Source: Alphaproteobacteria bacterium
GTDB taxonomy: Bacteria; Pseudomonadota; Alphaproteobacteria; Reyranellales; Reyranellaceae
Direction: 5' to 3'
Length of the DNA: 64,000 nt
NCBI GenBank assembly: GCA_016870115.1
Contig: VGCH01000006.1
Location: forward strand, 1 to 64,000
Part shown: positions 17,058 to 22,747 of the stretch, piece after piece
Numbering within the stretch: position 1 is the stretch's first letter
Layout: each line of letters begins with the position of its first letter
The notes under the pieces: generated by a model
Told to the model about the DNA's origin: nothing
The model's input: the letters and a program-made list of their open reading frames with translations, nothing else
Databases searched by the model: none
Position numbers and translations under genes: made by a program

Positions 17058-17888
17058 ATGGCTTCGACCAACTCACTTTCCATCCAGAAACTTTCGCGGC
17101 TGATCGGCCGACCGGACTGTCCGGTCCTGATCGACGTCTGCACCGACGAGGATTTCGCGGCCAACCCGAAGCTCGTCCCGGGCGCAGTACGGCGCGCCTG
17201 GGCCGACGTTGCGACGTGGGGCCCCGGGTTCGCGACCGGCGGCAAGTCGGCCGTCGTCGTCTGCCAGAAGGGATTGAAGCTGAGCCAAGGCGTCGCCGCC
17301 TGGCTGCGACACGCTGGGATTCGCGCTGATGTGCTGGAGGGCGGGATCGCGGCGTGGCAGGCGGCTGGAATGCCCACGGTGAACACCGCGAGCCTGCCGC
17401 CGCGTGACGCGCGTGGCCGGACCGTTTGGGTGACGCGCAGCCGCCCCAAGATCGACCGGATCGCCTGCCCATGGCTGATCCGGCGCTTCGTCGATCCGCA
17501 GGCCGTGTTCCTCTATGTGGCGCCCTCGGAGGTGATGGACGTGGCCGCGCGCTTCGGCGCGACGGTGTTCGATGTCGACCATCCGGATGTCCACTGGAGC
17601 CATCGCGGTGAGCGCTGCACCTTTGACGTCATGGTCGAGGAGTTCGGGCTGAAAACCGAGGCGCTCTCGCGCCTGGCGACGATCGTGCGCGGTGCCGACA
17701 CGGGACGGCCCGAACTCGCGCCGGAGTCCGCCGGCCTGCTGGCCGCCTCGCTTGGTCTGTCGCGCATGTACGACGACGATCTGGAACAGCTCGAGGCCGG
17801 CCTCGCTCTCTACGATGCGTTCTACCGCTGGTGCCGGGACGCGGTCGGCGAGGGCCATGACTGGCCGCCGACGGCGCGCAAGCAGTGA
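17058..17888 (+). CDS. chrB: Rhodanese-ChrB fusion, chromate resistance accessory protein
   Basis: A 276-residue two-domain protein. Residues about 8-108 form a rhodanese-like domain with the active-site loop starting at Cys70 (VVVCQKGLK) and the VLEGGIAAWQAAG ending. Residues from about 122 form the ChrB C-terminal domain, with TRSRPKIDRIACPWLIRRFVD and the VFDVDHPDVHWSHRGERCTFD segment. ChrB proteins sense or help resist chromate, often as regulators of chrA. The stop overlaps the chrA GTG start (GTGA), a clear translational coupling. A start at 16983 is possible but adds 25 unrelated residues. Confidence 0.88.
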   Translation: MASTNSLSIQKLSRLIGRPDCPVLIDVCTDEDFAANPKLVPGAVRRAWADVATWGPGFATGGKSAVVVCQKGLKLSQGVAAWLRHAGIRADVLEGGIAAWQAAGMPTVNTASLPPRDARGRTVWVTRSRPKIDRIACPWLIRRFVDPQAVFLYVAPSEVMDVAARFGATVFDVDHPDVHWSHRGERCTFDVMVEEFGLKTEALSRLATIVRGADTGRPELAPESAGLLAASLGLSRMYDDDLEQLEAGLALYDAFYRWCRDAVGEGHDWPPTARKQ

Positions 17889-19252
17889 CCGCACCCCACG
17901 GCGTTTCCTTCTCCGAGGCGGCCAAGGTCTGGGCCCGCGTCGCCGCGCTCTCGTTCGGCGGCCCGGCCGGCCAGATCGCGGTGATGCACCGCATCTTGGT
18001 GGAGGAGAAAAAGTGGATCGGCGAGCAGCGGTTCCTGCAGGCGCTGAACTATTGCACGCTGCTGCCGGGTCCCGAGGCGCAGCAGCTCGCGACCTACATT
18101 GGCTGGCTGATGCATCGCACCGCCGGCGGATTGATGGCCGGCACGCTGTTCGTGCTGCCCGGCCTGCTCGCCATCATGGCGCTGAGCTGGACTTACGTGC
18201 TGCTCGGCAAGGTGCCGCTGGTCACCGGTCTGTTCTTCGGCCTGAAGGCCGCCGTGCTGGTGATCGTGCTGGAGGCGGTGCTGCGCGTCGGCAAGCGGGC
18301 GCTGCGCAATGCGGTGCTGCGCGCGGTAGCCGCGACGGCGTTCATCGCGATCTTCTTCTACAATGTGCCGTTTCCCGCCATCGTCGCGGGCGCGGCGGTG
18401 CTGGGCTTCATCGGTGGCCGGCTGGACTGGCCGGCCTTCCGCGCCGGTGGCGGGCACGCCTCGGGCGGCGGCCCCCAACTCTCGGACGCGCAGTCACTCT
18501 TGGGGGAGGGAACGCCTGATCACGCGCGACCCAACCTGCGCTGGGCGCTGGCGCTTGGCGGCGCGCTCCTGGTCCTCTGGTTGGTACCCGTGGCGGTGTT
18601 GTGGGCCGGACTGGGTGCCGAAAACACCTTCTCGCGGATCGCGATCTTCTTCAGCAAGCTCGCGGTGGTGACCTTCGGCGGCGCCTATGCGGTGCTGGCG
18701 TATGTCGCGCAGCAGGCGGTCGACACCTATGCTTGGGTGACGCCGGGCGAGATGCTGGATGGGCTCGGCATGGCCGAGTCGACGCCGGGGCCGCTGATCA
18801 TGGTCACCCAGTTCGTGGGATTCCTGGCGGCCTTCCGCGATCCCGGCAGCCTCTCGCCGTTGGTCGCCGGCACGCTGGGCGGGCTGCTCACGACCTGGGT
18901 CACCTTCACGCCGTGTTTCCTCTGGATCTTCGTCGGCGCGCCCTTTGTGGAGGTGCTGCGTGGCAATCGCGCACTCGCGTCGGCACTGCAGGCGGTGACG
19001 GCGGCGGTGGTAGGCGTGATCCTCAATCTCGGGATCTGGTTTGCGCTTCAGGTCCTGTTTGCCGAGCGACGGCCGGCATCGTTTGCCGGTGCCAGCGTCG
19101 ATCTGCCGATCCTCGCCTCGGCCAATCTGCCGGCGATGGCCCTGGCCGCAGCCTGCGCGGTCGCCATCTTCCGCTTCAAGGTCGGGATGGTGCCCGTGCT
19201 CTTGGGCGCAGCCCTTGCGGGCATGGTGGGATCGTTGATCCTGCCGGGCTGA
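17885..19252 (+). CDS. chrA: Chromate efflux transporter
   Basis: A 455-residue long-chain CHR family transporter that exports chromate across the inner membrane. Both homologous CHR halves are visible. The N half has AALSFGGPAGQIAVMHRILVEEKKW and LLPGPEAQQLATYIGW; the C half has KLAVVTFGGAYAVLAYVAQQAVD and STPGPLIMVTQFVGF. The halves are joined by a Gly/Ala-rich linker near 180-220. Translation starts at a GTG overlapping the chrB stop. With ChrB it forms a two-gene chromate resistance unit. Confidence 0.94.
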   Translation: MTAPHGVSFSEAAKVWARVAALSFGGPAGQIAVMHRILVEEKKWIGEQRFLQALNYCTLLPGPEAQQLATYIGWLMHRTAGGLMAGTLFVLPGLLAIMALSWTYVLLGKVPLVTGLFFGLKAAVLVIVLEAVLRVGKRALRNAVLRAVAATAFIAIFFYNVPFPAIVAGAAVLGFIGGRLDWPAFRAGGGHASGGGPQLSDAQSLLGEGTPDHARPNLRWALALGGALLVLWLVPVAVLWAGLGAENTFSRIAIFFSKLAVVTFGGAYAVLAYVAQQAVDTYAWVTPGEMLDGLGMAESTPGPLIMVTQFVGFLAAFRDPGSLSPLVAGTLGGLLTTWVTFTPCFLWIFVGAPFVEVLRGNRALASALQAVTAAVVGVILNLGIWFALQVLFAERRPASFAGASVDLPILASANLPAMALAAACAVAIFRFKVGMVPVLLGAALAGMVGSLILPG

Positions 19253-21752: not shown

Positions 21753-22211
21753 ATGCCGGTCTTCAGCAACCCGCGTCGCACGCGCCGCTTCGACACCGCG
21801 CCCACGCTTGAGGATGTCGAGGCGATCGCCGCCGAGGCTCTCGCGACGATTCCGGAGGAATTCCGGCGCCATGTCGGCAACGTGCGCATCCAGGTCGACG
21901 ATTTCCCGACCGAGGAGATCGAGAAGGCGATGGAGCTCGAGACGCCGTTCGACCTGCTCGGTCTCTACCAGGGCGTCTCGATGGCAGAGCGTGGCGCCGA
22001 CCACGTCGCCAACGACATCGACCGCATCTTTCTGTATCGCCGCCCGATCCTCGACTATTGGGCCGACAGCGGTGAGGACCTGCCGCACGTCGTGCGCCAC
22101 GTGCTGATCCACGAGATCGGCCACCATTTCGGCCTGAGCGACGACGACATGGAGGCCATCGAGGCACGGGCCGAGGCCGAGGAAGCCGGTCGCCAGCCGG
22201 GAGCCGCATGA
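21753..22211 (+). CDS. Minimal zincin-like metallopeptidase (TTHA0227/DUF1025-type)
   Basis: A 152-residue cytoplasmic protein without a signal peptide. The zinc motif HEIGHHFGLSDD at 120-131 follows HVVRHVLI. The acidic central region (VDDFPTEEIEKAMELETPFDLLGLYQG) is typical of small proteins annotated as metallopeptidase family or minimal MMP-like. Peptidase activity is not firmly established for the family. Its stop overlaps the ATG of the HD-domain gene (ATGA), so the two are co-translated. The start MPVFSNPRR is preferred over a GTG-type start 12 codons upstream. Confidence 0.85.
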   Translation: MPVFSNPRRTRRFDTAPTLEDVEAIAAEALATIPEEFRRHVGNVRIQVDDFPTEEIEKAMELETPFDLLGLYQGVSMAERGADHVANDIDRIFLYRRPILDYWADSGEDLPHVVRHVLIHEIGHHFGLSDDDMEAIEARAEAEEAGRQPGAA

Positions 22212-22747
22212 GCGCGGCCCTCAGAGCCGAACTGCTCGGCATCTATGCCGGCCGCGCCACGCGCCGCTACGGCCTGAGCGACATCAACCAGCTGCAACAC
22301 GCGCTCCAGGCCGCGGCGCACGCCGAGGCCGACGGCGCTTCGCCGGCCACCATCGTGGCCGCCCTGCTGCATGATGTCGGCCACATGATCCACGATCTCG
22401 GCGAGGATCCCGCCTCGGCCGGGATCGACGACCGCCACGAGGCGCTGGGCGCGGACTGGCTCGACACGCGCGTCGGCCCCGAGATCGGCCAGCCGGTGCG
22501 CCTGCATGTCGAAGCCAAACGGTTTCTCTGTGGTACCGAGCCCGGCTATTTCGCCTTGTTGTCCGAGGATTCGGTGCGCAGCCTCGCGCTGCAGGGCGGG
22601 CCGATGTCGTCAGCCGAGGCCGATGCCTTCCGCGCGCTGCCCTTCTCGGCTGAGGCGGTGCGGCTCCGCCGCTACGACGAGGCGGCCAAGGACCCGCGTG
22701 CCCGCACGCCGGATTTCGATCACTTCCTCGGCTATCTCAGGCGCTAG
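22208..22747 (+). CDS. HD-domain diiron oxygenase-like protein (PhnZ-like)
   Basis: A 179-residue HD-fold protein. Residues His31, His55-Asp56, His77, His100 and Asp157 line up, with near-constant offset, with the six ligands of the mixed-valent diiron oxygenase PhnZ (recalled as H34, H58-D59, H80, H104, D161). Tyr21 matches PhnZ Tyr24 in a YxxxxINQLQH segment. The PhnZ Glu27 position is Ser24 here. This suggests an O2-using diiron site rather than a phosphohydrolase, acting on a substrate other than the phosphonate of PhnZ. No phosphonate genes are nearby. It is translationally coupled to the upstream minimal metallopeptidase. Confidence 0.75.
   Translation: MSAALRAELLGIYAGRATRRYGLSDINQLQHALQAAAHAEADGASPATIVAALLHDVGHMIHDLGEDPASAGIDDRHEALGADWLDTRVGPEIGQPVRLHVEAKRFLCGTEPGYFALLSEDSVRSLALQGGPMSSAEADAFRALPFSAEAVRLRRYDEAAKDPRARTPDFDHFLGYLRR

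Follow-up and report, generated by a model that had tools for sequence, protein, structure and literature searches.

A predicted HD-domain diiron oxygenase from Reyranellaceae lies in a branch of the PhnZ/TmpB family with a changed second-shell residue

Results and Discussion

An HD-domain gene in a Reyranellaceae contig

The window, i.e., the whole stretch of DNA analyzed here, comprises 64,000 nt (positions 1-64,000, forward strand, of contig VGCH01000006.1; Reyranellaceae, assembly GCA_016870115.1). An ORF at 22208-22747 on its + strand translates into 179 aa with a terminal stop, and is the sole copy of this HD gene in the genome. Because the stop codon of the preceding gene overlaps its start (ATGA), both genes are probably co-transcribed; the upstream gene, of a metallopeptidase family, was not a conserved partner in the loci of relatives that were compared. 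The features are as follows (all metal ligands are predicted from the translation and from the PhnZ/TmpB and family alignments):

21753-22211, + strand: Zincin_1 metallopeptidase-family gene (Pfam), upstream of the HD gene
22208-22747, + strand: predicted HD-domain diiron oxygenase, YGL branch of the PhnZ/TmpB (Phn-HD) family, 179 aa
22268-22291, + strand: codons 21-28, loop Tyr21-Gly-Leu-Ser24-Asp-Ile-Asn-Gln28 (PhnZ/TmpB alignment and group counts)
22298-22300, + strand: His31 codon, predicted metal ligand
22370-22375, + strand: His55-Asp56 codons, predicted metal ligands (HD motif)
22382-22384, + strand: His59 codon; His59 is taken to be the fifth histidine that marks TIGR03276 (PhnZ His62)
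22436-22438, + strand: His77 codon, predicted metal ligand
22505-22507, + strand: His100 codon, predicted metal ligand
22676-22678, + strand: Asp157 codon, predicted metal ligand

Metal ligands, gating tyrosine and predicted fold

When sequences in the PDB were searched with the protein, TmpB (6npa; HMMER E-value 4e-30) and PhnZ (4mlm; 5e-22) were the only matches. TmpB of Leisingera caerulea is ∼39% identical over 169 aligned residues and has the same ligands and the same gating Tyr, whereas its loop reads YLGE instead of YGLS, and no gene for a TmpA partner was found for the window protein. PhnZ (uncultured bacterium HF130_AEPn_1; 4mlm, 4mln, 4n6w, and 4n71) has the ligand set and the substrate-anchoring residues in common with the window protein but is only 29-30% identical to it, carries Glu27 where the latter has Ser24, and stands apart from it in the tree with strong support. 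An earlier reading of this DNA, made from the sequence alone, had assigned the six PhnZ ligands, the gating Tyr and the exchange of Glu27 for Ser24; all three assignments were borne out. His31, His55, Asp56, His77, His100, and Asp157 fall on the PhnZ/TmpB ligand set in the HMMER alignments, in which Ser24 also pairs with Glu27 of PhnZ. As phmmer aligned PhnZ from residue 24 onward, Tyr21 lies outside that match, and its equivalence to the gating Tyr (Tyr24/Tyr30) was taken from the TmpB and family alignments. His59, Lys104, Gln129, and Arg154 likewise match their PhnZ/TmpB counterparts. In PhnZ, the phosphonate is, as we take it, held by His62, Lys108, and Arg158.

Across 109 aligned family members, His31, Gln34, His55, Asp56, His77, His100, Lys104, Gln129, and Arg154 are invariant, and Asp157 and the gating Tyr are present in 106 and 107 rows, respectively. 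Since the ligands are invariant, or nearly so, in a family of this size, the match to the PhnZ set is, at the level of sequence, far beyond chance. The window protein also has the five invariant histidines of TIGR03276 (Phn-HD), namely His31, His55, His59, His77, and His100; the accessible part of PMC11203657 gives five conserved histidines as a feature of this clade and leaves the fifth unnumbered.

The match to TIGR03276 (NCBIfam) spans the full length (E = 1e-61), its 207.6 bits lying just under the curated cutoff of 214.6. With that family, which includes PhnHD of Achromobacter (PMC11203657, in the part available), the protein shares the five histidines and a phosphonate context in relatives; it differs in its score below cutoff, in belonging to a branch with Leu23, Asp75, and Asp121, and in its own locus without phosphonate genes. 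The more specific models fell short of their cutoffs of 300 bits by a wide margin: the TmpB equivalog NF049941 gave 148.5 bits, and the PhnZ1 equivalog NF052439, to which the hydroxymethylphosphonate dioxygenase of Gimesia maris (GmPhnZ) belongs, matched as a family relative (119.8 bits, E = 1e-34). Pfam MIOX (PF05153; 16.2 bits, gathering cutoff 25) and Pfam HD (weak) also remained below cutoff.

The sequence-only reading had proposed structure prediction and superposition on PhnZ as a check. The AlphaFold2 model of the 179-aa protein, built from an input alignment of 53 sequences, had a pLDDT of 92.4 and a pTM of 0.89, and VIA-align placed it on PhnZ with Z 23.8-25.9 and rmsd 1.7-2.1 (best, 4n6w at Z 25.9) and on TmpB 6npa with Z 25.3 and rmsd 2.2, the superpositions spanning 169-175 residues. 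The next fold was mouse MIOX (Z 10.6), and everything else was far below PhnZ/TmpB. MIOX has the same diiron HD fold but only 14% identity to the window protein in the structural alignment; simple membership in MIOX was rejected on the PF05153 score and on a Z of 10.6 versus 25-26 for PhnZ/TmpB. Simple hydrolase membership was rejected as well, the Pfam HD match being weak and the nearest folds being the PhnZ/TmpB oxygenases.

An ordinary HD phosphohydrolase or phosphodiesterase, for instance one standing in for PhnP in C-P lyase operons, is highly improbable: the predicted fold matches oxygenases far better than hydrolases, and the gating Tyr and the PhnZ residues are conserved. What speaks for such an enzyme is that HD proteins are mostly hydrolases (PMC8177086, in the part available), that PhnP had a match in none of the 28 family loci with PhnJ, and that many E-type genes lie between phnM and phnN. 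However, a DUF1045 gene adjoins the HD gene in 6/6 such neighbors tested, so that the job of PhnP may be filled; DUF1045 is, by weaker Pfam matches, a relative of the 2H-phosphoesterases. With this, a PhnP-replacing role of the HD protein became unnecessary and was rejected. As a separate observation, in many C-P lyase operons of Alphaproteobacteria the place between phnM and phnN is regularly taken by an E-type Phn-HD gene, which gives the order phnJ-K-L-M-[HD]-phnN (L166-L168, L170-L173, L218, L231, L235, and others), and DUF1045 was confirmed beside phn genes in six of the 28 PhnP-less loci.

The YGL branch

Relatives were collected from the same family (70 of 75 genomes, with 66 named loci also taken), from the class (80 of 385 genomes, at E ≤ 1e-30), and from the phylum (80 of 398 genomes via TIGR03276, of which 17 were over the cutoff and many were just weak generic HD matches). 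After thinning at 80% identity and removal of rows under 110 aa, 109 rows were used for the tree and the column counts. The window protein falls within a branch of 33 rows, here called YGL, with a support of 97/84 in a tree whose bootstrap had not settled (0.947); an earlier tree of 50 rows gave the same split with 100/96. All rows of the branch have Tyr21, Gly22, Leu23, Asp75, and Asp121. Outside, Leu23 occurs in 1, Asp75 in 17, and Asp121 in 6 of 76 rows. Position 24 of the branch is occupied by Ser (18 rows), Ala (6), Thr (4), Glu (2), His, Tyr, or Asn (1 each), i.e., Glu is absent from 31/33 rows, compared with its presence in 73/76 rows outside. From the alignment, the changed second-shell residue is a trait of the whole branch and not a peculiarity of the window protein, and YGL can be set off from the rest of Phn-HD by four features, namely Leu23, the missing Glu24, Asp75, and Asp121. 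Among the papers listed by literature searches, none had, judged by title or abstract, a YGL-type enzyme as its subject.

PhnZ and TmpB carry a YxxE loop where the window protein has YGLS. According to the accessible part of PMC8177086, the Tyr of this loop binds Fe2 before the substrate arrives, and a hydrogen bond is then formed between the Glu and the substrate's amino group. With these roles, the Tyr kept and the Glu lost, the YGL branch is predicted to retain the gate and to lack the amine contact. As the branch has lost the very Glu that contacts the amino group in PhnZ/TmpB, a substrate without ammonium appears most likely. This argument is weakened by GmPhnZ, which is specific for hydroxymethylphosphonate, a compound without an amine, yet whose substrate-binding residues are similar, as described in the available part of PMC11203657.

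Alternatively, the substrate might be the usual (R)-1-hydroxy-2-aminoethylphosphonate or an N-alkyl form of it, its ammonium being held by Asp25, Asp75, or Asp121 instead of Glu, which we regard as distinctly unlikely. Asp75 and Asp121, invariant in YGL and rare outside, would suit this role if they face the pocket; position 25 is variable (D, E, A, G, S, R, N, or K). Two YGL members have kept Glu24, and 29 loci encode, no more than 2 kb from the HD gene, a PLP enzyme of the threonine dehydratase type, whose chemistry has been compared with that of HAEP lyase (PMC8154272, in the part available); against this, TmpA was found beside 0/15 YGL members of the class sample.

Phosphonate genes beside YGL genes differ between lineages

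In the window, the 10 genes nearest to the HD gene included neither a phosphonate family (Pfam) nor an adjacent 2-oxoglutarate hydroxylase gene (PhnY/TmpA); the rest of the 64 kb was surveyed by gene starts. To this extent the earlier statement that no phosphonate genes lie nearby holds. In relatives, gene calls came from a crude in-house predictor, and an earlier count of 96 loci includes L001-L030, which partly repeat L031-L096. The order in Reyranella-type loci (n = 33) is a PCMT-like gene, a gene pair (the larger with weak similarity to polyamine aminopropyltransferases), the HD gene, and a serine/threonine dehydratase gene; phosphonate markers were present in 0/33 of them within the stretch examined. 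This operon yields no clear pathway. The dehydratase (PALP) gene lies mostly directly 3′ of the HD gene in Reyranella, and one copy (L034:6684-7604) scored over its NCBIfam cutoff; the enzyme might act on an amino-hydroxyphosphonate, or be unrelated.

Elsewhere in the branch, PhnD/PhnE genes adjoin YGL genes (L059/L162, L074, L091, L214, L215, L223, L241, and L247), several of these loci sit inside C-P lyase operons, and L091 additionally encodes a phosphonoacetate hydrolase. In the class sample, phosphonate markers (C-P lyase, phnCDE, or PhnX-like) were located beside 6/15 YGL loci versus 0/40 control regions (Fisher p = 1.7e-4), with marker thresholds chosen after hits had been seen, controls placed at arbitrary coordinates on long contigs (some genomes being used twice), and some tested regions ending at contig boundaries. 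As three of the 15 loci came from one genus, a count per family was added, which gave 4/11 versus 0/40 (p = 0.0013), or 3/11 (p = 0.008) when a PhnX-only locus was omitted. Markers were also found at 33 of the 65 other family loci of that sample and, among the named YGL loci outside Reyranella, at 5/31. The association of YGL genes with phosphonate loci thus varies: several lineages show it, and others do not.

Absence of phosphonate genes from the window had been taken by the sequence-only reading, which had also called for a survey of homologous neighborhoods, to point to a new substrate. That survey split: the Reyranella-type loci agree with the window, and part of the class sample does not. 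The ligands, the Tyr, the fold, and the changed residue of that interpretation stand, whereas the step from absent local genes to a new substrate fails, because YGL relatives in other genera lie in C-P lyase/phnCDE loci, because one relative is fused to a PhnY-like domain (see below), and because the residues presumed to hold the phosphonate are invariant. A non-phosphonate enzyme postulated from missing neighbors alone was therefore rejected, relatives having kept their phn neighbors. Judged from sequence, the substrate is most likely still a phosphonate with another side chain, rather than a new class of compound.

A relative fused to a PhnY-like hydroxylase domain

In one bacterial YGL member, L058:2724-4103 (+ strand, 460 aa), a PhnZ-like HD oxygenase continues in frame into a PhyH hydroxylase domain. 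Residues 1-178 are 62% identical to the window protein and have the same YGLS loop. For residues 188-420, the PhyH domain, the methylphosphonate hydroxylase PhnY of G. maris, i.e., the partner of GmPhnZ, was both the nearest model (123.6 bits, below the cutoff of 500) and the only NCBIfam match under 0.001. The HxD...H and Arg motifs of a 2-oxoglutarate enzyme appear to be intact. Beside L058, a search of the YGL branch for PhyH-type neighbors gave a single weak candidate, in L210. A fungal protein in which PhnY and PhnZ are fused, PhoF, has been described (PMC10574752, in the part available), and the role of Phn-HD proteins without a PhnY partner is put as an open question in the available part of PMC11203657. 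The fused protein offers a PhnZ-PhnY-like pair that is assayable as one polypeptide.

Phosphonate genes elsewhere in the genome and in Reyranellaceae

Another contig of the window's genome carries a phnDDCEE-type operon (L100:9356-13839) with two related binding proteins in tandem. PhnC (305 bits), two PhnE (265 and 276 bits), and two TIGR01098 binding proteins are over cutoff; the cargo of this transporter could also be phosphite or phosphate. In the same genome, PhnJ (C-P lyase) was not found, PhnX stayed below cutoff, the best TmpA match had 29 bits (cutoff 400), and relatives of the L058 PhyH domain were absent at E ≤ 1e-3. Its seven PhyH proteins resemble most closely ectoine hydroxylase, a chlorinating enzyme, or 1-deoxypentalenate hydroxylase; 0/7 exceeded any cutoff and none was close to PhnY, so no hydroxylase partner was identified. 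Family-wide, PhnE was over cutoff in 65 and PhnJ in 54 of 75 genomes.

These data bear on the possibility that the Reyranellaceae sublineage has been recruited to a non-phosphonate substrate, the protein being an O2-dependent diiron enzyme which cleaves or oxidizes another hydroxylated metabolite. The markerless Reyranella-type loci, the setting of the HD gene, with a SAM-dependent/polyamine-synthase-like pair on one side and a PLP serine/threonine dehydratase on the other, and the failure to find a dedicated hydroxylase in the window's genome would fit such a recruitment. We nevertheless consider it unlikely, because the residues taken as phosphonate holders are invariant and sister genera with the same loop retain C-P lyase neighbors. 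Moreover, the HD gene occurs in 63/65 family genomes with PhnE over cutoff versus 7/10 without (p = 0.015; some genomes are incomplete), and in six of the seven Reyranella genomes that have it and phnJ on one contig, the two are 49-56 kb apart (147 kb in the seventh).

Proposed function

With moderate confidence, we propose that the protein is a mixed-valent diiron HD oxygenase of the PhnZ/TmpB kind which most likely cleaves a 1-hydroxyphosphonate without an ammonium group at the position it has in the PhnZ substrate. We infer the metal content, the O2 chemistry, the substrate class, and what the loss of the Glu means. A phosphonate substrate is suggested by the loci of relatives, by the conserved anchoring residues (whose roles are partly presumed), and by the L058 fusion. 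Counting against the proposal are the window and the 33 Reyranella-type loci without phosphonate markers, the lack of a PhnJ or hydroxylase partner, and the scores below cutoff. Mechanistically, an Fe(II)/Fe(III) pair would be held by His31, His55-Asp56, His77, His100, and Asp157, and the O2 site would be capped by Tyr21 until the substrate binds. The 1-hydroxyphosphonate would chelate Fe1, its phosphonate being gripped by His59, Lys104, Gln129, and Arg154; O2 would then bind to Fe2, the C1-H would be abstracted, and the C-P bond broken, yielding phosphate and a carboxylate. The side chain of a YGL substrate would be neutral or anionic and free of ammonium.

A further-reaching and rather doubtful version is that YGL proteins are distinct C-P-cleaving oxygenases for ammonium-free 1-hydroxyphosphonates, with a pocket reshaped by Asp75 and Asp121 and a substrate made by a PhyH enzyme, and that in Reyranellaceae they act outside phosphonate operons together with a separate phn-type importer. 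If true, this would add a specificity of phosphonate oxidation beyond those we found described. With the analysis as a whole, the vague lead of a "new substrate" has narrowed to a few candidate substrates and mutants.

Other neighbors of YGL and related genes

Some neighbors were recorded as observations in their own right. In the Caulobacteraceae-like loci L077, L079, and L085, the YGL gene is accompanied by genes for a predicted LysR regulator, a DUF5690 transporter, and a phospholipase C, in L077 additionally by one for a PhoD-like phosphatase; these loci have the look of organophosphorus scavenging. L067, L076, L078, L080, L090, L174, L209, and L213 each encode a CehA/McbA-type PHP metallohydrolase no more than 1 kb from the HD gene. 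A ChrB-C/chromate transporter pair lies at 17058-19249 of the window, ∼3 kb from the HD gene, and a chromate transporter gene (L215:6621-7931) adjoins the HD gene in L215; this proximity in both places is possibly a coincidence.
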